From Zhengitettix transpicula (lineage: Eukaryota > Arthropoda > Insecta > Orthoptera > Tetrigidae), in the NCBI GenBank assembly GCA_037074705.1, contig CM073590.1, positions 116,208,100-116,272,099 of the forward strand: 64,000 nt of DNA, read 5' to 3'. Positions 2,926 through 62,365 of the stretch are shown here, one piece after another. The number at the start of each line of letters is the position of its first letter. The stretch's first letter is position 1. Made by a program: the position numbers and the translations under genes. The notes under the pieces were generated by a model. The model had not been told where the DNA came from, made no database searches, and worked only from the letters and a program-made list of their open reading frames with translations.

Positions 2926-3514
2926 CCATTCTCTTTCAGTGAGTCGTAATTCTGCGAAGAATTCCCGAGGCGATCGTAATGTAAGAGATGCACTACCTTG
3001 TCTATAACCATCTTACAAAAAAAAAAAAAAAATCTCACGCGCGGAAACTCTGACATATATAATATCTGTTTCACGCCATTTTTTTCTTCTTAGGTAACAA
3101 ATCCTTAGTGCGAAATCAGAACTTCTTTTACTATTTGGAAAGCAAATTTTTGTTGAGTTTGCTACATTGCGCCTTGAATCGCAAATGACTCCGTATCGTT
3201 CGTGGTTGATCGTAAAAAATTTAGAAAATGTTAGTAGTGTTCTTATGGCAAAAGCTTTCGTCGACAGTATTTAAGGAATGGTTACTTATAGTTTTGTAGT
3301 TTCCTGTTTCTCCCTCTCTCACTTCCAAAATTCATAACATCCCCGCTGTGTAACCGAAGAATCGTTTCCTGAAATCGCATTCCATTTAAGAATTAGGGTG
3401 GTCAACGTAACTTTGCGAAATCCCAGTATTAAATTTTCTCCCAAAATTTTTACGAAACGAATGGATTTACGGACACTTTTTTTTTCATAATATCTCATAA
3501 ATCTATGTTAGAAT
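2926..3514. other. AT-rich sequence with poly-A run
   Basis: An A homopolymer of about 15 bases lies at 3017-3031. No coding or repeat family was recognised. Confidence 0.5.
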
Positions 3515-3790
3515 TAATAATAAGATAAATAGCCAAATACAGACGAAAGAAGTGATAATAAAAATACCACTGGAAACTGTTTGCTAACCGTATTGTGCGG
3601 TTGTGTCCCTCTAGGCTCTTGTATTTTTAGTGTTCGTTACGAACAAAGGTTTCCAGGAACGTTGTGTGGTATTTATATTATCACTTCTTTCGTCTGTATT
3701 TGGCTATTTTATCTTATTATTCATTTTCAAAACAGACGTATATTTTTCATTTTAATCTGTGTAGACACTGAATTAATTGTTCTTAGAAAT
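3515..3790 (+). mobile_element. Penelope tail fragment with inverted left arm
   Basis: The right part (3598-3790) matches the tail shared by the Penelope-like elements at 17-20 kb: TTGTGTCCCTCTAGGCTCTT, then ACGTTGTGTGGTATTTATAT, then a TTGGCTAT motif and an AT-rich end. The left part (about 3517-3572) is an almost perfect reverse complement of 3668-3722, so the fragment can fold into a stem of about 55 bp with a loop of about 95 bases. The hammerhead core is degraded (GTTACGA in place of CTGATGA, GGAACGTT in place of GAAACGTT). Partial inverted terminal copies are typical of Penelope-like insertions. Confidence 0.6.
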
Positions 3791-5479: not shown

Positions 5480-5885
5480 CCCATAAGCCGTGACACCTAC
5501 TGCGGATTTGAGCAGTGAATGTCGCACACGTTGGGCATACGGTAGAGTTGTTCCTTGATGTTATTGGGCCTGTCGGCCAGCTGCCCTCCAAATCCCGTCG
5601 ATGCATGGAGTTTGGCATGCTGCGTCTCCACAGTGGACCCAGGATCCGACAAGGGTCAAGCACCAAGAGCCTGACCTACGTGATTCAGATTTCTCTAGGG
5701 TTTCTTCTACATCATTTTAGGATAATTCTGTGTAGGATCCTTAAAATGCAGTCCTGAGGCCCCAGTCACCCCTTCGCTACCTTTTATACCTTCCGATCCC
5801 AGTTTCTCCGCTCCTCTCTATGTAATTAAAGGGGACAATCATCAAAGCGGATAACCCTCATGTAGTCCGTCGCTCCTTCTTCAAT
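5480..5885 (+). repeat. HR1 repeat, diverged copy
   Basis: HR1 is my name for a unit of about 350 bp found eight times in this window. Landmarks seen here in order are TCGGCCAGCTGCC, a diverged GACCTACGTGATTCAG, TTTCTCTAGGG, TAGGATCCTTAAAATG, GGCCCCAGTCACCCCTTCGCTACCTT, AAAGGGGACAATC and GGATAACCCTCATGTAGTC. This copy is the most diverged of the plus-strand set. HR1 has no open frame, and I do not recognise the family. Confidence 0.75.
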
Positions 5886-10902: not shown

Positions 10903-10939
10903 TCTCTCTCTCTCTCTTTTTTTTTTTGGGGGGGGGGGG
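10903..10939. repeat. (TC)n then T and G homopolymer runs
   Basis: A (CT)n run is followed directly by about 11 T and about 13 G. It abuts the start of a minus-strand HR1 copy. Confidence 0.9.
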
Positions 10940-11192
10940 TAACAGGCTACATGAGGGTAATCCACATAGTGGCAACTCCCCTTTAATAGCATAGGAAGGG
11001 ATTTGAAAGGTGGGATGCGGAAGGGTAGTGGAAGGTAGCCAAGGGTTAACTAGGGCCCCCAGGCTATATTTTAAGGATCCTACCCGGCATTCGCCTAAAG
11101 AAATGCAGGGAAAGCCCTAGAAAAACCTGCATCAGGTAGGTTGGGCATTGGGTACTTGTCCCACGCCCTTCCGATAGCGGGAGAAGATTTCT
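10940..11192 (-). repeat. HR1 repeat copy
   Basis: On the minus strand the HR1 landmarks appear in order: the GGAAGGGCGTGGGACAAGTA region, CCTACCTGATGCAGG, CCCTGCATTTC, AGGATCCTTAAAATATAGCC, CTTGGCTACCTTCC, CTATTAAAGGGGAGTTGCC and CATGTAGCCTGTTACC. ATGCAGG at 11103-11109 pairs with CCTGCAT at 11126-11132, giving the central hairpin typical of the family. The left half of the unit is missing. Confidence 0.85.
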
Positions 11193-15473: not shown

Positions 15474-16746
15474 CCACATAAAATAAAAAAATGAATTTAT
15501 TTATAAAATATAAATTCTTTATTTATTCTTTAAAATCAATTTCATCCCCTTGAAAGTAATACCCGTCCGATAAAACTCACTTTTTCCAACGCTTTTTCCA
15601 GTCCCCGAAACAGTCGGAATAGTCTTTTCCGGTATAGCCTTCAATACCTTCTTCGATTCGGTTTTTATCTCCTCAATCGCGTCAAAACAGCGTCCCCGCA
15701 TTGGCCTTTTGAGTTTTCTGATTAGCCAGAATTCGCTCGGAGCCAAATCAGGCGTATACGGTGGTTGCGGAACGATATGAGTCGAGTTTTTGGCAAAAAC
15801 GTCGCGAAGAACCAATACAGTATGACATGGTGCATTATCGTGATGGAGGAACCAAGAGTTGTTCGCCCATAATTCCGGCCGTTTCAGACGAATAACTTCA
15901 CGCAAACGACGCATAACGCTCAAATAATATTCTTTGTTAACAGTTTGACCCGGCGGAAGGAATTCATAGTGCACCACACCACGATAATCAAAGAAAACTG
16001 TCAACATGACCTTGATTTTCGATCGACTTTTTCGTGGTCTTTTCGGTCTTGCGTCACCATTTGCACGATATTCGCTGGATTGGTCGGTGGTTTCAGGGTC
16101 ATATGCGTAAATCCAAGTCTCGTCTCCAGTAATGATGCATTTCAAGTGGTCCTGATAGTCAGACAGCAAAGTTTCACACACATCAACGCGACGCTTTTTT
16201 TCCAAAAAATTGAGCGATTTTGGCACCAATCGAGACTTTATGCGTTTCAGACACAAAACATTCTTCAAAATGGTTTGGGCTGAGCCAAATGATATTCCAA
16301 CACTATCAGCATCAAATCTTTGATTTTTTGGACGTGGCCCTCGTCGGTAGACGTTGATGGTCGTCCAGAGCGCGGTTCGTCTTCAACGCGTTCTCGGCCC
16401 TCTTTGAACTCGTTGTATCACTTATAAACGTTTTTTTCTGCCATAGTTTGATCACCAAAGGCCTTCCGCAACATTTTCTACGTATCCACACAAGAATATT
16501 TGTTCCGCAAACAAAATTTGATGCAAGTTCTTTGCTCAACAAAATGACCCATTGCAAAAATCGAAAAACTCACCTTTGGTTGTTTACAAAAACACGTGTA
16601 ACTCGGAAATAATTAAACCTTTTAACAAACAGATGCTTGGCAAATATTATAAACAGTCCTACCAACCTAGGGAAAAAAATGTACCTGCCTTCCTAATACC
16701 CGGGAGTTTTAAATGACAATTTCACCTTACTTTTTGATCACAGTGG
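15474..16746 (-). mobile_element. mariner-family DNA transposon inserted in the LINE
   Basis: The 1273-bp length is right for a mariner. Both ends have TA (15472-15473 and 16747-16748), the obligatory mariner target duplication. The termini start CCAC on both sides: minus-strand CCACTGTGATCAAAAAGTAA at the transposase 5' end, and a decayed CCACATAAAATAAAAAAATG at the other. LINE reverse-transcriptase sequence runs up to both edges, which supports these boundaries. Only the transposase 5' side has a well preserved terminal inverted repeat. Confidence 0.85.
15519..16557 (-). pseudogene. mariner transposase (frameshifted, DD34E)
   Basis: The transposase cuts and pastes the element at TA sites through a D,D34D catalytic triad. 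The N-terminal part (16557-16270) carries FVEQRTCIKF and FKEGRERVEDEPRSGRPST-like words in a frame with stops. The C-terminal part (16268-15519) is a 249-codon frame. Within that frame I see GDETWIYAYDPET (D49), MLTVFFDYRGVVHYEFLP, HHDNAPCHT (D144) and PQPPYTPDLAPSEFW. The third catalytic position (179 of this frame, codon at 15732-15734, GAA) is Glu where the family has Asp. The last 35 or so codons are shifted by an indel, since the expected DWKKRW-type end appears in another frame. Wording such as WIYAYDPE fits the mellifera-like mariners. The copy is inactive in cis. Confidence 0.9.
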
Positions 16747-18180: not shown

Positions 18181-18200
18181 CGAATACTAATTAGTATATT

Positions 18201-18485
18201 TTAAATGAAAAATGTACGTCTGATTTAAAATAATTAATAAGAAAGATAACCAATTCAGACAAAAGAAGTGATAATTCCACACAACGTTCCGTGATCCTTG
18301 TCGCTTTCATCAGGTGCGAAGAAGAGCCTAGAGTGACACAACTGCACTCGTCTTGTCAACTTCGCACCTGATGAAAGGGACAAGGATCCCAGAAACGTTG
18401 TGTGGTATTTATATTATCACTTGTTTGTCTGAATTGCCTATCTTTCTTGTTAATTATTTTCAATCCGACGTAATTTTTTTCATTT
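18201..18485. repeat. Large inverted repeat of Penelope tails
   Basis: 18201-18320 and 18359-18485 are imperfect reverse complements with a loop of only about 40 bases. The right arm carries the best hammerhead-like core in the window. CTGATGA is at 18368-18374, a GGGA/TCCC stem follows, GAAACGTT is at 18392-18399, and a flanking stem I forms from CGCAC before and GTGTG after. The left arm holds the same core in reverse, with GGAACGTT replacing GAAACGTT. Confidence 0.85.
18368..18399 (+). ncRNA. Candidate minimal hammerhead ribozyme core
   Basis: The invariant box CUGAUGA is followed by a 4-bp stem (GGGA/UCCC) and GAAAC, with GUU as the putative cleavage triplet. The ACGU palindrome would give a two-base stem III in cis or a four-base one in a dimer. 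The extra AA before the stem and the A after it make stem II non-canonical, so activity is uncertain. Minimal hammerheads that probably act as dimers are described in Penelope-like elements. Confidence 0.45.
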
Positions 18486-18488
18486 TAA

Positions 18489-18747
18489 AAACTTTTCTTC
18501 TTTCAACAGTCTTAAACATTTGCCACGGACTATTTTCTATTTGTATTTCTTCATCACTTGTTAAATTCATTCCTGAGAATTGGCCAGAGGTATGTGCTTG
18601 TTTCATTAATTGTCCAAGTTGTTCTGGATTTGGTGGAAATGGTAGTGTGAATTGATTATTTATTGACTTACCTGGATACTGCTGCGATTGGTGCAACACG
18701 GATTGGTGAAACTGCATTCGTTGAGATGAAACAGTGGCTATTTCCAT
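18489..18747 (-). pseudogene. LINE gag-like ORF1, N-terminal part
   Basis: An open minus-strand frame starts at an ATG at 18747. It begins MEIATVSSQRMQFHQSVLH, is rich in Gln, Ser and Pro, and ends IQIENSPWQMFKTVERRK just before the Penelope insertion. W..V/...KRRK is a common feature of ORF1 proteins of I/Jockey-type LINEs. The next coding piece (NRYNVLNN) lies at 17282 on the far side of the insertion. The CpG-rich DNA upstream (18750-18985) would be the LINE 5' UTR and internal promoter. I infer the family from position and composition, and no catalytic motif is expected here. Confidence 0.5.
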
Positions 18748-21480: not shown

Positions 21481-21930
21481 CCGCTCTAAAAGTGGGGAAA
21501 ATTGTGGATACACTTAGCATGTCATTTGCATCACATGGAACAATTTAACTCCATGAGTGTTAGGAGCAAGTTCTCTAACGGAAAGAAAATTTAGAATCAA
21601 AATGAAATCTGTCTAGTCAACACTAGTTAGTGAATTGTAGTGAAGTGAGGTTTTTTTGTCTGAAGAAACGGAACAAATCATTTAAACAACACTAGAAATA
21701 TTTCTCAACTCCGCATTGAAAAACATCGCCTAAGTATTTACAATAGACTTCCAGACGAAATAAAAACTTTAACTATACAAAAAAATTTACAAAGAGATGT
21801 AAATATTTGTTAATTAATGAAGGTGAAAGAGTTCGTAGATAGGAAGGTCAGATTAAATACTCTTTAATAAAATAGTTTGCTGGTATCGAATCAAGTTATG
21901 CTATTATTTTACAATTATAATCTTGTAGAA

Positions 21931-22088
21931 GATAAAATTCTCGGGTCTCAACCCGTGCCAATTGTTCGTTAACCTGATGACGATGGCGGAGATTGCAGTC
22001 GAAACGTCGTTATTCAACGAAAAATTGGCCCGGGTTGAGACCCGAGAATTTTATCTAGAACAGATTCACAGGGAAAGCCGTCGCTCTC
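21931..22088 (+). mobile_element. 158-bp fold-back retroelement with hammerhead-like core and 13-bp TSD
   Basis: TAATCTTGTAGAA occurs at 21918-21930 and 22089-22101, a perfect 13-bp target-site duplication. The insert starts with a 38-base arm (21931-21968) that pairs with 22018-22055 with only two mismatches. Between the arms lies CTGATGA (21974-21980) and GAAACGTC (22001-22008). After the right arm, 33 bases (ending GCCGTCGCTCTC) complete the insert. There is no coding capacity. Short hammerhead-bearing elements mobilised by Penelope-type machinery (animal retrozymes) are the closest known parallel. A second, diverged copy lies at 48.8 kb. Confidence 0.8.
21974..22008 (+). ncRNA. Candidate hammerhead ribozyme core in the fold-back element
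   Basis: The order is CUGAUGA, a 20-base stem-II region, then GAAAC and GUC, the preferred cleavage triplet. Stem I would run GUU/AAC next to the core, then an AUUC bulge, then on into the long terminal arms. The bulge is where natural type I hammerheads make tertiary contacts. Stem III is only the ACGU palindrome, suggesting action as a dimer. Pairing in stem II is weak (CGAU/AUUG or GAC/GUC). Confidence 0.45.
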
Positions 22089-22376
22089 TAATCTTGTAGA
22101 ATTTAACTGCCGACTTATTTTTTTTTTCACGTTCGACGGGATTTAAAGTAAGACTGCGTCGAATGAAAATTGAAGATTAATATACTCATACTCTTCACTG
22201 TTTAATCACTGTTATATTAACTAATATTTAATGTCCCTTTATTTTATACGATCTTTTGTAAAGTACAATGATTGCTTTTTGAACTTTGTAATTGTAATTA
22301 TTTTTGTAATCTTATATTATGACGTATCGTATATCTTCAACCGAGGTCTAATGGACTGAATAATAAATCTAAATCT

Positions 22377-31015: not shown

Positions 31016-31192
31016 AACAGGCTATGTGAGGGTAATCCACATTGTAGAAATTCCCCTTGATACGATTGGATTTAAAAGGGGGGATGCGGAAGGATTGAGG
31101 AAGGTAGTCAAGGGTTAACTAGGGCCCCCGGGCTATAGTTTAAGGATCCTACTCGGCATTCGCCTTAAAGTGATGCAGGGAAAAACCTGCAC
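31016..31192 (-). repeat. HR1 repeat copy (truncated)
   Basis: Minus-strand HR1 landmarks are GATGCAGG.., TGCAGGTTTTTCCCTGCATC (hairpin with a shortened loop), GGATCCTTAAACTATAGCCC, GGGGCCCTAGTTAACCCTTG and GATTACCCTCACATAGCCTG. The half carrying TCGGCCAGCTGCC is absent. Confidence 0.8.
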
Positions 31193-35084: not shown

Positions 35085-35400
35085 AGAAACGATAGTATTT
35101 TCCGCTATTCCAATTGAAATAGTCGGCCAATTGCCTCCTAAACTGGTCGAGACATGGAGAAGGGAATACTGCGACCCCTCTCTCGATATCGGAAGGGCGT
35201 GGGCAGTGTTTCAGGTTTTCTAGGCTTTTACCTGCATCACTTTTAGGCGAATTGCCGGGCAAGATCCTTAAAACTGCAGCCAGGGGTTCCTTGTTAATCC
35301 TGGGGTACCTTCCTCTACCTTTTCGCATCGACCCTTTCAGTCCCTTTAGGGTGCTATAAGAGGGGAGTGGCCAGATCGTGGATTATCCTATCAAAAGGAC
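35085..35400 (+). repeat. HR1 repeat copy
   Basis: Contains CTATTCCAATTGAAATAGTC (first hairpin, decayed), CGGCCAATTGCCTCCTAAAC, GGAAGGGCGTGGGCAG, CAGGTTTTCTAGGCTTTTAC then CTGCATCACTTTTAGGCGAA, AGATCCTTAAAACTGC, and AGAGGGGAGTGGCCAGATCG. It is nearly full length. Confidence 0.85.
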
Positions 35401-35574
35401 AAGTAAGCCTGTCGGAGCTGTTCTCAAGTCTCACAAGTGGAACGTTCTAGAACAGTCGGACTGGGGTACCTTCGCAGATGTATTATATTCTATTCTTGTT
35501 TTGAACTAAGATTCCCACAAACCGAGGTACCTCAATAAGTTTTGAGTGGTGTATGTTCTGGGGTCACAGAATAA

Positions 35575-35895
35575 GGGCATACGGTAAGAACTATCAGTTG
35601 TTCCTATTGGAACAGTCGGCCAGCTGCCTCATTAACTGGTCAGGACATGGAGAAGGGAAAGCTGCGTCCCCTCAGCAAATCCCACTCCAATCATCGGAAG
35701 GATGTGTTCCCAGGGCTCGACCTACCTAGTGCAGATTTTTTAGAGTTTTCCCTGCATCACTTTTAAGAAAATTCCATGTAGGATCCTTAGAGTACTGCCC
35801 AGGGTCCCTAGGTAATCATTGAGTATCCCTCCTTTTAAATCCCTTCCTATGCTATTAGAGGGGATTTTCCATCACGAGAATTACCCAATTGTAGC
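35575..35895 (+). repeat. HR1 repeat copy, direct to the previous one
   Basis: It begins GGGCATACGGTAAGAACTAT and carries TTCCTATTGGAA (hairpin 1), TCGGCCAGCTGCCTCATTAA, CTCGACCTACCTAGTGCAG, CCCTGCATCACTTTTAAG, TAGGATCCTTAGAGTACTGC and TTAGAGGGGATTTTCC. It has the same orientation as the copy starting at 35085, with about 175 bp of unrelated sequence between them. Confidence 0.85.
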
Positions 35896-37371: not shown

Positions 37372-37600
37372 CTAGTACCCAATGCCCGACCTACCTGATG
37401 CAGGTTTTTCTAGGACTTTCCCTGCGTTACTTTTAGGCAAATGCCGGTTAGGATCCTTAACATATAGCCCGGGGGCCCTAGTTACCCCTGGCTATCTTCC
37501 TCTACCCTTCCGCATCCCCACTTTCAAATCCCTTCCAATACTATTAAAGGAGAGTTGCCCAACATGGATTACCCTCATGTAGCCTGTTGCCCTAAAAAAA
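37372..37600 (+). repeat. HR1 repeat, right half
   Basis: Starts AGTACCCAATGCCCGACC and continues CTACCTGATGCAGGTTTTTC, GGATCCTTAACATATAGCCC, CCCTGGCTATCTTCCTCTAC and ATTACCCTCATGTAGCCTGT. It is followed almost directly by a full unit. Confidence 0.9.
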
Positions 37601-37960
37601 GGCATACGGTAAGAGTTGTCCGCTATTCCTATCGGAATAGTCGGCCAGCTGCCTCCTAAATTGGTCAAGACACGACGAGGGGAAAGCTGCGACCCCACAG
37701 CAAACCCTTTCCCGCCATCAGAAGGGCGAGGGACATATACCAAATGCCCGACCTACCTGATGCAGGTTTTTCTAGGGTTTTCCCTAGATTACTTTTTCCG
37801 AATTGCCAGGTAGGATCCCTAAACCATATCCCTGGGGCCCTAGTTAACGCTTGGCTACCTTACTCTACCTTTCCGTTTCAATCCCTTTCACTCCCTTTCC
37901 TATTCTATAAGAGGGGAGTTGTCACTAGGTGGATTACCCTATACATAGCCTGTCTACGAC
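37601..37960 (+). repeat. HR1 repeat, full unit in tandem
   Basis: This is the most complete HR1 unit in the window. It starts GGCATACGGTAAGAGTTGTC and holds a perfect hairpin CTATTCC-TATC-GGAATAG (37623-37640). Then follow TCGGCCAGCTGCCTCCTAAA, AGAAGGGCGAGGGAC, the GATGCAGG hairpin, TAGGATCCCTAAACCATATC and the GGATTACCCTATACATAGCC end. It has no open reading frame of note. Confidence 0.9.
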
Positions 37961-41900: not shown

Positions 41901-43535
41901 ATATTGTTTTCAGAAATTGGAAAAATTCGTCATGTTACTAAAAAGAGTTACACTCATACAAGAATTTGGACTTGGAAAAGAAGGCACCAACAACTTTTAT
42001 AAATAAAAGGAAAGCATATTTGGATTGAAAATGCCGACTAAAATCTAAATTAACTATTTATTTATTTCCTAACTACACAACGTCTATTTCTTAGAAATAT
42101 TAAGAAATTTTAATATAGAAAAAAATATATTCATTATTTCAAGTTAGCTACACTGTGATTTAATTTATGAGTGGTCTAAAAGAATAACAATTGTTTAATA
42201 GGAGTTTAATTATTTAATCTATAAATTATAATTTAGGGCTGTTTGAAAGTTCTCACGAGAATTATTTCAGTAAATATTTTCGAACCTTTTATTATTGTTA
42301 TTGTCCATTATGTTGAAATAACGATAATATTTATTAATATTTACTTGTACACGATACACTGGGATCCATGAATCTTCCCAAAATAAAAGCAATTCAATTA
42401 TCTAGCCAGGTTGAATGCACACACATATTACTATACTGGAAATATTTCCTATCAAATTTAAAATATATTTTTTAATTTTAATGTAATTTAGAATGTTTGA
42501 CACGATAGTGGGTTCATTAAAGATATACAAGAAACCCGGAGCCATCATCTCGTAGAGGGTGGACCCAGGACATGACGGCCACAATACACTTAGCCTTGGC
42601 AAAATGTCAGAATGGGGCCAAATTTTGAGCTTTTTTTTTCGTAAATAAAGTTAACCGACACCGGTAGAAAATTCTATAATCCCAGAGAAAGGTCCGTCCA
42701 AGCGCCAATTACGGCATCAATGAGGTGAAACCTGAATTAAAATGATTGGAGATCGTAAGCCCCTTAACGCTCCTTGACGCTCCAGAAGGCGGGGTGAAAG
42801 CTGTGATCGGGGCAAGGATTTCTGGGAAGAGCAGAGCCTAAAATTTCAGGAGAGTGGAGGATTAGAATTGAGGAATAATTGAAACAGAAATAGAGTAACG
42901 AGAAAGCATAATTTTAGTTTGAGGACGAGACGAATTGAGGTGAAATTCTTTGAACCCCTAGCGTCAACCACACGTCACGACTCCTCCAATCAGCCACCAG
43001 CATGTTCCCGAACTAAGCTCTCCGGAAAATACCAATTAATTGTGATGAAAATATGTACCAACCGGAAGTAAATTACTGTGCTTCATGGACAAACACTGAG
43101 AAATTTTCCCCTTTCCTTTTTTGTCCCATAATGTTCAATTAATGTATTTACCTACAGAAAAGACACTTAATCAAGCTTTCAATAAAATAATATTTCCTAC
43201 AACGTCTCGTCAACAATTACTAGAACACTCTATCATAAAGGTATCTCATACTTCACGGTCCAGTGAGAATAATTGTCCAAAGTCAGTCAAGCTTGGAAAA
43301 TACATTTAAATCTAAATTAGAGTCCCGTCCATTTATTTCTTTTAATTCATAAAAAAATGACACTAATTGAATAAAACTTTATTTAATTTATAAAATTAAA
43401 TTAAATCCTCACTAATATCCTTTCAAACTATACACACTTATTTGCTTCAATTTGGGAGCTGTGCAGTACAGACGTAAACTCTTCATAAAGTGGAAAATGG
43501 TCAAGGAAGTACATTCACCAACTACTTCTCATTTA
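38961..43535. other. Mostly unrecognised sequence
   Basis: AT-rich, with an AT run at about 39428-39442. A CpG-richer patch at 39940-40190 holds a motif-free 74-codon frame, and a GC-richer patch lies at 42700-42860. The local duplication at 41.2-41.4 kb is listed separately. No transposon protein was recognised. Confidence 0.4.
41235..41406 (+). repeat. Tandem duplication, period about 85 bp
   Basis: AAATGGAATAAATTACATTG through ATGTAGCAAATAAATT recurs from 41320 with a few substitutions and a changed T tract. Both units share CAATGGCAGAATCATTAATA. Confidence 0.95.
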
Positions 43536-43690
43536 GTTAATAAGAAAGATAGCCAATTCAGACAAAATAAGTGATAATATAAATATAAATACCACACAAC
43601 GTTTCTGGGATTTTTGACCCTTTCGTCAAGTGAGAAGAAGAGCCTAAACGACTCAACTGCACTCTTCAGTTGACAAAACTCAAAAGTATT
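43536..43690 (-). mobile_element. Penelope tail fragment
   Basis: On the minus strand it reads TTTTGAGTTTTGTCAACTGA, AGTGCAGTTGAGTCGTTTAG, CTTGACGA (core with one extra T), GGGTCAAAAATCCCAGAAAC, GTTGTGTGGTATTTATATTT and TTGGCTATCTTTCTTATTAA. Stem II would be GGG/CCC. The ATAAAT word before the tail is duplicated compared with the other copies. Confidence 0.8.
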
Positions 43691-46600
43691 TTTTACTTCT
43701 CATTTAGGTCTAGAACTCTGCGTGGTCTGCGAAACAGGTAACTTTTTTCATGCCACCCGCCAAGAAGGATTATAGGATTAACCTTTAATGAGAACCGCCC
43801 GATCGGTCAAAAATTCAGCTCGATGCAGGATAAAAAAAAACAAGAACAATGAAAAAAATGAATGAAAGAGATGAAGAGTTCGATTTGATTAGCTTTGGAG
43901 TTTTAACTGAATTCATTATTATTCACTATATGCTACTTTTAAAGGGAAGAGAAATGAAACAATATTGATTTCGAAGTTACATTTACATAGATTTGGTAGA
44001 ATCTCAGACCTGTTGCTTTCTCTATTTTCAGATCTATGAACCTGGGTAACTTTAACCACTAATTTAGTTAGTAAAGTAACAATTTTTCTGTAATATATTT
44101 TAACGTTTCTTTGTGCTGTTTTATTTGTACTAATCCTTAAGCATAACTATTCATGTTATCTGGGCAAATAACTCCATAGAAAATTATTTAATAAATGTAA
44201 ATTAACTGTATATGTCTGTTGTTCGTTTAGACCATTTTAGTTATAAGGAACGTTGCCTAATAGCATGTAAACAAACAATGTATTATGAAATAATTCAGAT
44301 CGCACCATCCTCAGATACCATTTTTTTTAAATAAGCTTTTCTGTTGAATATTTGTGGGAAATTACTGGGATTCTGAAAACTTGATTCTTGCTTGTCTATG
44401 TTTTCACTGAAACAGAGTTTTAAAATATTAAATACTATGCACTACGATGAAGTTAAACAGAGGTCATTTCTTCGAATGATCGAATAATTTCGAATAACTC
44501 GCTTTGAATTTGTTTATCATTTACTTATAAAAAACATTTATTTTAAATATACTATTCATAAGAAACAACTTTCAGTGTCGACTTCTCAACTATATTATTG
44601 CATTTTAAATCTGCGGATTGAATTGTAATTTAAATTAATAATTATGATACTTAGCCGATTTATTGAATAATTTCAGAATTTCTGGATTTAACTATTTATC
44701 TTTCTAGTATGATTAATAAATGTAACATTGAATGATCTAATTTAAAATTTTGTGAAGAAATGTAGTAAAAGATTAGAATTTAAAATCCGAGTTATGTCCT
44801 ATATTTTTATTATGTTTCCTATGATACATTATATTTCTTCTAATATATATTTATATGTAGGTATGTATTAACGACAAATTTGAATGTCTCGCTTTCCGGT
44901 TATGAATTACCTCATAGGTTCTCACTAAAACCGGCTTTCCGTAATTTTGAAATGGAGTGGATAAGGTTAATTAATAACAGGTTAAATTAAATTAAATGTT
45001 AAAGAATAGTTTTTGATAGTGTTTTTTATAATGACCAATTGGTGCTTAATTCTAAGTAATATTAAGTTTTGTCTGTAACTTGGACATTATTTAATCAAAA
45101 AATAACAAATTATCGAAAACAACCAAGAATGGCTTTGATCCCATAACTGATTAGTTAAACGGAAGTTTAGTCAACCATACCTCTGTAGAACCTTCTGGAA
45201 GACTATGTGCTAATAAGATGCGGGGTAGTGAAATAGAAGTATGTTTCTTATGAGCAAACAGAGAGGTTAAGACATTTTTTTTTTCTCTATTCGCACGAAT
45301 CTCCCTTTTAACTTCAACGGATTGCAATTTCCAGTGAAAGTGGCATTATTGGTTTCCACCAATCCAAAGAGACATTCTGTTAACTATAGTCTAGTAGGTT
45401 TCAAAACGCCACGTTCGTCCCATAAACAACTGTATGTTCTTTTCTCAATGCTGTCTTAACCAAAAAAAATATTTGTTCTGACTCTTGGAGTAGAAACTAA
45501 AAAATAGTATTTACAATCAAGTATGGAGGTTAATTAACATTATAGTGAAAATACTTCATAATTTTTGTAAACAGTACTTAAACCTCCAAATATTTGTAAA
45601 TAAGTTTACTTCTATTTTACACTAGCAATAGAAATTATTCAAGTTGTGTATTAGTATGCCGTCTAATAGAAGATTGGGGTAAATAAATGCTAGCGCCGGG
45701 CCACCATCTAATTTTTTTATTGACATTTATTTTCAATTTGTTGTGATGATAACTAAAAGGAAATAAGATTCAAGGTAATAACAATTACAGTGGAAATTTA
45801 CATGTGGAGTAAACGCCAATTGTATTTTATTCTTATGAGTTTTCTTATAGTTAATGCATAAATTTGGCATTGATGACGTTAAAATCGGTGAGGAAGGTGC
45901 AGTGATTTAAAGCATTTCTGTCCAGGCACTTGGTCAGCGTTGCCAAGCAGAGTCAATGCTAGAGGGTTGGGATGCTAAAGATATGTGTGTGTGCAGTTCA
46001 CTATTTTCTTTAAGCATTTTTACATTTAAATCAAGGGAGTTTTTTATGAGCATTCATCTATACTTCTGACCTGCCAACTACAAACAATACAACTATTGCA
46101 ACATTCGCGGATTATACTGCCTTGATATCAGTAGATTCTGACATAGCTGTGGTGTAGTCGTGTCCCTTGTTTTTAATTTTTGAAGGATAAAGGTTCCACA
46201 TTGGCATTAACACCAGATACAAAGTGCGCACATGGAACAAGAATTTACTTCTGTAAAAAACAGAACGCCGGGAAAGTGGATTTGGAGGGACAGTTTATTG
46301 TCTCGACCACGCAGCGGGTGGTCAGAGGAGCTGAAAAGGGTCAACGCATAAGGGGCAGTTTTGCATGGGAACATCAAGGAAGCTGTTGTTAAAACGGACC
46401 TGACGGTCGGGGAGAGAGGATCGATCTTGAGGAATGTGCGTCTGGATGCAGACAAAATATGTAGTAACGTTCATCCAAATGATTGAGGATTGCAGAGCTT
46501 CAGATCAAATACCTTCCGAATACAACTAATTACAACGAGACTGAACGTCATGAAATTGTGTGGCTAAAACTGACTGCGGATTTTCTGAAGAGACAAAAGG

Positions 46601-48789: not shown

Positions 48790-48960
48790 GATGTTTTCCT
48801 TCTACTTGGATGTATATTTCTCGGGTTATTTCTGACCTGAAAAACAGCGACCCCTGACGACGGTGGCGGAGATAACTGTCGAAACGCTGTGTTTCACTCA
48901 AGATATAACCCGGATAGAAAGCCGAGAAATCTTCAATCATCAAATACGCCGGGAAAATCT
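48790..48960 (+). mobile_element. Hammerhead-like fold-back element, second copy
   Basis: TATTTCTCGGGTTATTTCTG on the left pairs in part with ATAACCCGGATAGAAAGCCG plus AGAAAT on the right. Between them stand CTGACGA (48854-48860) and GAAACGCTG (48881-48889), with GGTGGCGGAGATAACTGTC closely matching GATGGCGGAGATTGCAGTC of the 21.9-kb element. AACAGCG before the core pairs with CGCTGT after it. The trailing GCCGGGAAAATC echoes CACAGGGAAAGCC. The ACGU palindrome is ACGC here. I see no clear target-site duplication. Confidence 0.6.
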
Positions 48961-49678
48961 ACATTCAATCAACTTTTACTTTAAGCAAACGACATCTTAG
49001 ACTTTTCATACGTAACCTCGCTGTCTTAAGGTGTTGTTTTACCGAAAATCAGGATTCTTATTTCTCTCGGATACAGTAATATGTGATATAGGGTTGTCTA
49101 TTACAGACATTTCTCCAAGATTCTGCAATTTAGTGCGCTTCCGGTTTCCTAATAGTTAAATTTCACGGTCATACATCCCCATTATCTCTAATTATTTTCA
49201 ACAACAAACCTTTACCATTTACCATAAATTTCCATTGTAATTATTATTCATACATTTCGTCATTTCACACGAGCTATTTTTTTTAAAAAATTAACATTTA
49301 ACGGAATTTGTCACTCCGAACGATGATTTCCTTATTTTTTGGACAACAAAATTTTTTCTCTAACTCCGCATGCAATTGTAGATGCAGTGTTGTTAAACAC
49401 AATTTTTTTCCTCTTCAACAATAATCCTCGATTCTACGTAAATACTTCTCATTACAGATGTGTTCCTCCCACTTAAATGTAGACATTTCTTTGAAGCCGC
49501 AATTCAAATATTTCCTCTCTTCGAACTTTTCATTAGTCTATTCATCTGGAGCATAATACTTGGTCGAGTCGTAATGAATCTTAATCTGGCACTTAGAAAC
49601 GTCTAAGAGCCACGCTTCTGTAGAATTCCGTTTCAAATGCTTCTCGTATTTCCAAGGTCCTGATCGTAACAAAGTTTT
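48961..49678. other. AT-rich sequence, nothing recognised
   Basis: No feature seen. Confidence 0.45.
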
Positions 49679-49800
49679 GTTTAAAATAAAAAAATTACGT
49701 CGATTGAAAATTAATAATGAGAAATATAGCCAAATACAGACAAAAGAAGTGATAATATAAATACCACACAATCCTTGTTCCTATCTTCAGGCGGAGAAAA
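49679..49800 (-). mobile_element. Penelope tail fragment (short)
   Basis: On the minus strand it reads CTGAAGATAGGAACAAGGAT, GTGTGGTATTTATATTATCA, CTTCTTTTGTCTGTATTTGG, CTATATTTCTCATTATTAAT and a CGACGTAATTTTTTTATTTT end. The GAAACGTT half of the core is deleted. The wording is closest to the fragment at 3.6 kb. Confidence 0.75.
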
Positions 49801-52735: not shown

Positions 52736-53339
52736 CAATCTTCACTACAAAATGAAGGTTAATTTTAAACAGGACTGTTCAGATTGAATCATAGAGAACG
52801 CTTTCAATTTTCTGAACACGTTATATTATTATTTTCTTACTTGATCCTGGTTATCTGCTGATAACAGTCATGATAATAAAATACCAGCAGATTTGCGTTA
52901 AAACATAAGTACAAATTTTATTCAATAATTATATTAAAGATCATATAAATGAGTAGAAAATGGCTAAGAATCAAGAATTTAAAACATTAAAAGTTAAATA
53001 TTATTTGAAATTCCCCGTAACGTTTCTTTCCTTTGTGAAGGAATCTCTTCAAGAGATATATTATTAAACAGACCATTTGTATGTCTTAAATGTTTAAATT
53101 TGATTGGACTATTTGAGAGAAAAATTTAGACATGGGCGGATACATTTCGGTGTAATTGGAAAGACACGAAGGTCAACTCCACTATTTTGTGTGATGCAAT
53201 ACTTTTTTAGATTTATTTTGCATATGTACAATGTCTACTCTTATTTGAAATTGAGTAATAAGTAAATTTTATATCTTTGGATACATGAAATGATAGGATC
53301 TACCCATCGCTATTCTCACGAATAATACATCAGCTTTGA
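52736..53339. other. Unrecognised sequence
   Basis: No feature seen. Confidence 0.4.
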
Positions 53340-60971: not shown

Positions 60972-62033
60972 CTAGTTCACTGAGGTAAATATATACTTAA
61001 GCAGTTTTTTCGATTTCAGGGTTCTAATTATTTCACTTCGTACGAACAAATTTGACTAATAGCAGATACAGTCACTTGTTTGTTTTTTTCTCAGAAGTAT
61101 AATAGTTGTTTCTCGAACTTCCTCGATACACCTTCCTTTAATCGACAAAACTGATAGTTTACCAATTCACTTTCGATGACTCTCAGTCATTGCAACATAT
61201 GACTTTCCTATGATACAAAAATAAATTAGAGGAGAAATTTTCAAAAGTAAAGTTCTTTATGATATTTTGAAAGTGAATTTTTTACGTATGACCTATCATT
61301 AATCACATCGTCAGTCGACAGTCTTACCAAGAGTTTTTTTTTCTATGTATTCCTTGCACGAACTTCTTGGGCTTTCAGATCATAACCGAAATTTTTTCTA
61401 TTGTTTTGTAGTACTAAGAATTCTGCTGCCTGTCGTAGGTATAAATAGTGATCTCACTTTTCTAATGTAATGACTTCAATATCAGCATATCCGTTCTCTA
61501 GAAGTGTTCGTTGAACTTAATGTTTGTTTCCATTACGTCATTTCTTAGCAGCCTTGTTTATAATACTCCATTTATGTTTAATATTTCTAATTTCTTAGTA
61601 TTTTCAGACGATATTCCTATGTATTCGGTGAAATGTATTCCACTAAATGTTTAAACGACTTCGTTTTCCTCATTTAAGTTTTCAAAATACTTCCTCGATT
61701 GCTGTCGGTACGATTTTTTTTCTCTAGAGTCTTCCTCGATTCCAGTTGTAAATAAACTACAAGCAGCTTTGACATTTCAATTAATTTCAAATGTTACACT
61801 TTGTGTGCCGCCTTCGTCAATTGCTTTTCTTTTAGAATTTTCTGTTGTCCTTTCCCCTTCCGTATTTCTTTATGCATCTGAATTTTACCTCTATCTAGAA
61901 GAAATTGAATATATTATATATCTTATTAATTGAATGAGCTTATAATTATGTAAAATTATACTTTAATAACTTTACTATTGTTAATAGTTCAATTGTTGAT
62001 GTCTTGAAGTAAAACATATTTGATTGTTTTTTT
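60972..62033. other. AT-rich sequence, nothing recognised
   Basis: No feature seen. Confidence 0.45.
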
Positions 62034-62365
62034 TAGGGCAACAGGCTACATGAGGGTAATCCACTTTGGGCAACTCCCCTTTAATAGCATAGGAAGTGAT
62101 TTGAAAGGGGCGATGCGGAAGGGTAGAGGAAGGTAGCCAAGGGTTAACTAGGGCCCCCGGGCTATATTTTAAGGATCCTACCTGGCATTCGCCTAAAGAA
62201 ATGCAGGTAAAACCCTAGAAAAACCTGCATCAGGTAGGTCGGGCATTGGGTACTTGTCCCACGCCCTTCCGATAACGGGAGAGGAGTTTGCTGTGGGGAC
62301 GCATCATTCCCTTCTCCGTGCCTCGACCAGTTTAGGAGGCAGCTGGCCGACTATTCCAATGTTCT
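62034..62365 (-). repeat. HR1 repeat copy, nearly complete
   Basis: The minus strand runs from ATTGGAATAGTCGGCCAGCT through GAAGGGCGTGGGACAAGTAC, CCTACCTGATGCAGGTTTTT, AGGATCCTTAAAATATAGCC and TTAAAGGGGAGTTGCCC to ATGTAGCCTGTTGCCC. The central hairpin is intact. The copy is very similar to the one at 10.94 kb but keeps the left half. Confidence 0.9.

Follow-up and report, generated by a model that had tools for sequence, protein, structure and literature searches.

The 64-kb stretch of the genome of the orthopteran Zhengitettix transpicula analysed here (the window; the source genome measures 993.6 Mb) carries a 158-bp insertion with a hammerhead ribozyme motif in its centre, bounded at 21918-22101 by a short direct repeat. 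In our reading this insertion is probably a twin-primed solo pseudo-long terminal repeat (pLTR) of a Penelope-like element (PLE). Elements of the Penelope type commonly leave such short by-products, and the insertion has the look of one, its hairpin having been made as it inserted; a new kind of ribozyme element is not needed to account for it. In published accounts of PLE layout (PMC3846280, PMC11167929), an inverted pLTR, a direct pLTR and a tail of about 31 bp are accompanied by a target-site duplication, and the open reading frame (ORF) starts inside the pLTR. Of these traits, a duplication, an inverted and a direct copy and a tail of the ~31-bp type are present in the insertion, which also has a hammerhead motif at the putative pLTR/ORF junction.

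Anatomy of the insertion and of its genomic copies

The 13-bp direct repeat of the original prediction, TAATCTTGTAGAA, is perfect and lies immediately on either side of the 158 bp (Table 1); a flank match equally good, at the same spacing, occurs at only 0.001 of 2000 random positions. Terminal arms with two mismatches had also been described, and they measure 41 nt (21930-21970 and 22016-22056, 95% complementary), with an extra ATTC on the core-proximal side of the right arm and, as had likewise been noticed, a core in hammerhead order between them. Exact 20-bp inverted arms within 300 bp of each other form two clusters only in the entire window, one in this insertion and one at 3527-3709 that likewise sits in a PLE insertion. 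The right part of the insert is a complete unit of 121 nt, starting with GTTAAC, the foot of stem I, and finishing with CGTCGCTCTC. The left arm is an inverted partial second copy, whose outer end corresponds to a proximal start site at about unit position 88. In the window copy this arm is joined in register with the natural stem I, and the in-register junction gives the appearance of one long stem. The target site and the tail match in part, which may be due to chance.

Searching the source genome with the 158 bp gave 1206 first-look candidates, the best 40 of which were scored. Of these, 39 lie outside the window; 38 were fetched and one, its 749 bp being equal to another's, was dropped, so that 37 loci and the window copy make up the 38 copies considered below. 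The two places with identical 749 bp (L164 and L165; G000:C6:74155704 and C6:28166596) lie about 46 Mb apart on one contig in opposite orientation, either through duplication or as an assembly repeat. What the copies have in common is one 121-nt unit, GTTAACCTGATGA...CGTCGCTCTC, and not the 158 nt. At the 3' end of the unit, 37 of 38 copies stop no more than 2 nt from one common base. By local alignment its 5' end is at unit position 1 in 24 of 38, a count that includes one misassigned locus (L169, where the inverted copy is the complete one), and the starts of direct copies range from unit 1 to 12; none of the 38 starts at the predicted hammerhead cut.

The left arm behaves differently. An inverted copy was called in 31 of the 38 copies, one call (L139) being spurious on reading, and an arm is undetectable in seven, among them copies with perfect flanking repeats (L132, 11 bp; L133, 12 bp; L138, 9 bp). 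Of the 31 called arms, 27 have their outer end at unit 89-99, and the inner ends are spread from unit 1 to 64. The idea that inverted arms stop at the ribozyme cut was rejected, the inner end being at unit 42 in three of the 31, no clear excess in a sample biased towards that region. Inspection of the junctions by eye showed some to be direct, others to overlap by a few bases and others again to contain filler, which reaches 127 bp in L135 and 608 bp in L143. In these two loci (L143:2763-3568 and L135:3393-3666) an inverted and a direct unit are split by other DNA with near-perfect repeats outside, as if two PLE cDNAs had enclosed DNA from the host or elsewhere. Whether the insertion and a relative at 48.8 kb belong to one family of fixed 158-nt length whose arms covary was also considered; the moving junctions of the genome copies rule this out, as do the left arms of the two copies, which are unlike each other. 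The relative itself, already noted in the original prediction as a diverged copy, is real, with a duplication of its own that is not significant (p 0.22) and an altered cleavage triplet.

Perfect flanking repeats of 9-15 bp are present in 19 of the 37 loci, some not abutting the unit, and the 13 bp of the window copy come in addition. No two of the 37 loci share sequence abutting the unit borders (19 of them being represented by about 300 bp of flank only), and no full-length head-to-tail tandem copies occur in the 18 8-kb and 20 short stretches read; L149 contains short repeated fragments of the unit start. Of what the original prediction proposed to look for in the genome, candidate copies and duplications were found and, in the stretches read, full-length tandem dimers were not.

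These properties inspire comparison with Pen2a of the rotifer Adineta vaga (PMC3846280). Pen2a has a left inverted and a right direct pLTR, a one-sided tail of about 31 bp, a target-site duplication, an ORF start in the pLTR, DNA captured between pLTRs and a palindrome at the pLTR 5' end, all of which have their likeness here, the ORF start as a putative one. In contrast, the copies read in the present study are without an ORF body, their junction is often near the hammerhead and the pLTR-like unit, tail included, measures only 121 nt, as against 218 bp in Pen2a.

The hammerhead motif

By the core nucleotides that define hammerheads, the motif in the insertion is complete. CUGAUGA and GAAACGUC stand in hammerhead order, the type I features (core CUGANGA / GAAA, A15.1-U16.1, H17) are present in the sequence, and the cut is predicted after 22008. 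Predicted stem II is formed by 21982-21987 and 21995-22000, beginning one nucleotide later than in the canonical form; predicted stem I pairs 21968-21973 with 22009-22011 and 22016-22018, and stem III is shrunk to ACGU. The pattern CTGANGA-N8-24-GAAACG has seven occurrences in the window, whereas 60 order-1 Markov simulations gave 0.07 on average and one at most.

The Rfam search for which the original prediction had called gave no hammerhead match in 21800-22200 at E values up to 10, and none in eight sister loci. A comparison model was derived from the window's eight other hammerheads, which are related in sequence and whose structure was chosen by us. Its covariation exceeds that of shuffles: 76.1% of cells are paired, versus 62.9% in shuffles, and eight are changed on both sides, versus 2.8; none of 500 shuffles matched either value. 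The model scores the window copy at 12.5 bits, which amounts to an E value of 0.14 in 64 kb, and the 48.8-kb relative at 6.4 bits. It finds the 121-nt unit in 12 of the 14 loci given to it (of 37), at 13.5-18.4 bits, and also yields a few matches of similar score elsewhere. A further weak match lies at 53012-53059 on the minus strand (16.5 bits, E 0.0045).

Each pair of stem II forms in 34-37 of the 38 copies; the inner pairs of stem I form in 34/38, 36/38 and 33/35, the outer ones in 26-28 of 38, and there is little covariation in either stem within the 121-nt family. The strict core pattern is matched by 25 of the 38. In the window copy an A replaces the C that most copies have in stem II, leaving a G.A mismatch and one pair fewer, and, with the core forced open, the hammerhead-compatible fold reaches -66.0 kcal/mol, 8.1 short of the -74.1 of the minimum-energy fold. 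Judging from these features, the motif most likely represents a minimal hammerhead of the PLE type, slightly worn in the window copy.

The stem I that the copies share is short (GUUAAC paired with GUU-AUUC-AAC). Because the unit is 121 nt long and the arms are undetected or variably joined, the “unusually long stem I” of the original prediction is not supported and is better read as the inverted second copy made at each insertion. The hammerhead does not by itself explain the hairpin shape. A long stem I was sought at the other hammerheads too and dismissed, five of seven motifs having none beyond shuffles.

The minimal hammerheads of PLEs, for which Cervera and de la Pena (2014) and Lunse et al. 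(2017) are cited, are similarly of type I, with a complete core and almost no stem III. Since stem III is almost lacking both there and here, a dimer would be needed; more generally, a predicted hammerhead of this kind would need a partner RNA or protein for cleavage. The insertion and the other hammerheads of the window apparently differ from the PLE form in an extra nucleotide between A9 and stem II.

The source of the inserted unit

The Penelope-like sequences that the original prediction placed nearby are there. One repeat family, F1, accounts for six of the eight comparison hammerheads (near 17.3, 20.5, 28.8 and 43.6 kb, and a palindromic pair near 18.3 kb); those at position 459 and at 36.1 kb are diverged. 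Pfam GIY-YIG matches number at least 61 among the matches listed for the source genome, and F1 units were found in 25 of the 30 three-kb loci examined around such matches (one by a 34-nt match only; three are near-identical neighbours), which supports the identification of F1 as a PLE. In three of the loci (L186, L187 and L188; G000:C7:12680905, 12687258 and 12693609) the GIY-YIG matches are about 6.35 kb apart and agree in the positions of their hammerhead and F1 matches, which recalls a tandem array. Within the window, evidence from proteins is slight: reverse transcriptase is represented by one weak match below the Pfam cut-off, and the protein database yielded no homologue.

F1 copies end either 53-61 or 86-91 nt past the predicted cut, the second end including the tail. 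The tail arrangement of the F1 insertion at 3507-3755 matches that of the 158-bp insert, and its duplication is not significant by a simple test (p 0.21). A palindromic F1 insertion at 18199-18490 consists of two head-to-head copies, each with a tail-type end, and has no clear duplication. The F1 copies at 49680-49793 and 3503-3755 had been candidates for truncation at the ribozyme cut, which is ruled out by deletions inside the hammerhead core of both, at 3.5 kb in the inverted half only.

A bridge between the 121-nt unit and the coding part of a PLE may be provided by the frame that opens at an ATG in stem II (21983) and translates as MAEIAVETSLFNEKLARVETREFYLEQIHRESRRS; it is open in 30 of the 33 copies without deletion. 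From this ATG the predicted cut falls after frame nt 26 and the insert ends at nt 106. In PAc, a Poseidon element of Anolis, the hammerhead is at the ORF start, the cut is 26 nt into the ORF, and reverse transcription has an internal start near +110, with start sites at 111-118 (PMC11167929). A second in-frame ATG at 21977 shifts the distances in the unit to 32 and 112, so that the agreement is partly a matter of choice. PAc also differs in being full-length and in tandem arrays, whereas the unit is known only from short copies.

The same insertion could stem from a different source, a dedicated non-autonomous 121-nt RNA mobilised in trans, the PLE counterpart of a short interspersed nuclear element (SINE) headed by a hammerhead. 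We consider this possible, if rather doubtful. It would suit the 1206 candidates, the 5' end at unit 1, the lack of sequence common to any two of the 37 loci past the unit borders, the codon-position pattern within the family and the lack of a full-length source among the loci examined. Two properties of the frame argue against it. One is its position relative to the cut and to the 3' end, which fits the start of a PLE ORF. The other is its similarity at the protein level to diverged relatives. The 48.8-kb copy, aligned without gaps in frame and lacking the ATG, has 16 of 35 residues identical and 23 positive, a score reached by 0.065% of 20000 random placements (p 0.00065), with differences by codon position of 12/10/18. 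Diverged sequences in six further loci (L178, L189, L190, L192, L197 and L198), some with stops, resemble the frame at 29-53% identity, with E values between 4e-5 and 0.14. PDB and the protein database yielded nothing. The original prediction had raised the prospect of copies being fragments of a larger coding transposon; the similarity of the frame between families speaks for this in part, and no full-length coding source was found among the loci examined.

Several other observations weigh against a solo pLTR. The 121-nt unit was not seen in the 30 GIY-YIG loci, a few of which contain diverged relatives of the 61-70% type, nor was a full-length source with this unit found among these and the 37 copy loci. 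Variation within the family is distributed 104/78/56 over the codon positions, the third being the least variable, and two subfamilies of the unit differ by three replacements and no silent change. This non-coding-like pattern is weak evidence, because such copies decay without selection, but it still stands. Eighteen of the 37 loci have no perfect repeat of at least 9 bp by the simple test, and the sample consists of the best 40 of the 1206 candidates, half picked for an end-to-end match to the query. Finally, GTTAAC is preceded by A in 10 of 24 copies, by G in 7, by C in 6 and by T in 1, so the exact 5' end of the RNA is not fixed. Eight of the 10 copies with A have a C before it; the pair would fit an arthropod-type initiator and is not decisive.

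A retrozyme, that is, a small circular RNA arising by hammerhead self-cleavage and copied back into DNA, is very unlikely to be the source. The hammerhead core, the small size and the co-occurrence with PLEs do recall the non-LTR retrozymes of animals, which are short hammerhead repeats with duplications and no genes, thought to depend on PLEs (PMC7229834). Those are, however, arranged in tandem, with repeats of about 150-450 bp, and give rise to circular RNA, whereas the present copies are dispersed and linear, have constant ends, form no full-length head-to-tail tandem in the stretches read, never begin at the cut when direct and have only ACGU for a stem III in place of the canonical motifs described there for invertebrate retrozymes. 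Of the non-autonomous, ribozyme-bearing retroelement originally proposed, the lack of full genes of its own, the minimal hammerhead motif and the Penelope link, by anatomy, hold; membership of a retrozyme-like family is not supported. A fold-back or MITE-like (miniature inverted-repeat) DNA transposon with terminal inverted repeats, for all its appeal given long inverted arms, flanking repeats and many short copies, is scarcely credible in view of the 32-bp tail past the right arm, the seven copies with no detectable left arm, some of them within perfect flanking repeats, and the varying repeat length and junctions. Matches to the hammerhead pattern in viral and bacterial collections proved on inspection not to be elements of this kind.

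Two other features of the window are a 287-amino-acid open frame at 15519-16382 on the minus strand, matching Pfam Transposase_1 (E 1.3e-16) and presumably of mariner type, and a repeat family that looks non-coding, with members of some 200-340 bp that are 68-89% identical to one another.

Table 1. Positions of the insertion, its parts and related features in the window
Feature	Position	Strand	Basis or remark
Left copy of target-site duplication, 13 bp	21918-21930	.	Perfect match to 22089-22101
Right copy of target-site duplication	22089-22101	.	Perfect match to left copy
Left arm, inverted partial second copy	21931-21967	-	Reverse complement of right arm
Complete 121-nt unit, pLTR-like, GTTAAC...CGTCGCTCTC	21968-22088	+	Ends common to sister copies
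Tail, 32 bp, past right arm, ending at distal start site	22057-22088	+	Without inverted counterpart on left
Minimal type I hammerhead core (predicted)	21974-22008	+	Sequence; comparison model; pairing over 38 copies
Open frame from ATG in stem II, read as putative N-terminus of PLE ORF	21983-22088	+	Protein-level similarity to diverged relatives
Diverged relative, same layout, altered cleavage triplet	48812-48968	+	Near-gapless alignment over whole length
F1 solo insertion with hammerhead, 157 bp, without inverted arm	43537-43693	-	Perfect 14-bp repeats 43523-43536, 43694-43707
F1 insertion, tailless left inverted copy and tailed right copy	~3507-3755	+	Boundaries approximate
Members of 200-340 bp repeat family	5533-5800, 10938-11165, 31028-31188, 35108-35833, 37375-37942, 62022-62360

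Proposed two-strand priming and its implications

The copies display the unit with its ends, variable junctions, flanking repeats and a conserved core. For the protein, the template and the order of steps, we infer the following course. A PLE protein would take an RNA whose 5' end lies at GTTAACC or directly beside it and which contains the hammerhead together with the ORF start. Both target strands would be cut, with a stagger of about 13 nt, and reverse transcription would initiate inside the RNA. On one strand it would start at the distal site, unit 121, so that the tail is included, and run to the RNA 5' end, producing the 121-nt direct copy; on the other it would start at the proximal site (about unit 90) and stop early, producing the inverted arm. 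The two cDNAs would then be joined via short overlaps or filler. As the likeliest template we favor the 5' end of a monomeric PLE mRNA, copied from an internal start, because it requires nothing new and fits the frame; its main rival is the separate non-autonomous RNA.

In PAc, too, two start sites bound a tail, and both target strands were extended in vitro; the hammerhead of this element depended on protein, and insertion in vitro did not require it to be active (PMC11167929). The unit resembles PAc in having two tail-bounding start sites and, from the ATG at 21983, in the place of its predicted cut. It is tempting to speculate, as a tentative step beyond the solo pLTR, that the unit represents a PLE-dependent SINE-like family of perhaps a thousand copies, with a 121-nt RNA that has the hammerhead at its very start and junctions that record two-strand, two-site priming in vivo. 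In a bolder form of this proposal, the hammerhead or the foot palindrome ATCAGGTTAACCTGAT would help set the point at which the two cDNAs meet.

Penelope insertion is poorly known: one element has been reconstituted in vitro, and the later steps were left unvalidated in that work (PMC11167929). The present family provides many short insertions that lay open both ends, both start sites, the junction and the duplication within a short distance, so that two-strand priming becomes testable in genomic data. Fold-back insertions of the 121-nt unit could also pass for microRNA precursors. Rfam microRNA matches at 21933-22053 (minus strand) and in L154, L161 and L162 are sub-threshold and arise from the fold-back; they were rejected as candidates. 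More generally, where an animal genome has a hammerhead core enclosed in a hairpin, the hairpin can be the scar of an insertion, rather than a long ribozyme stem or a new retrozyme.
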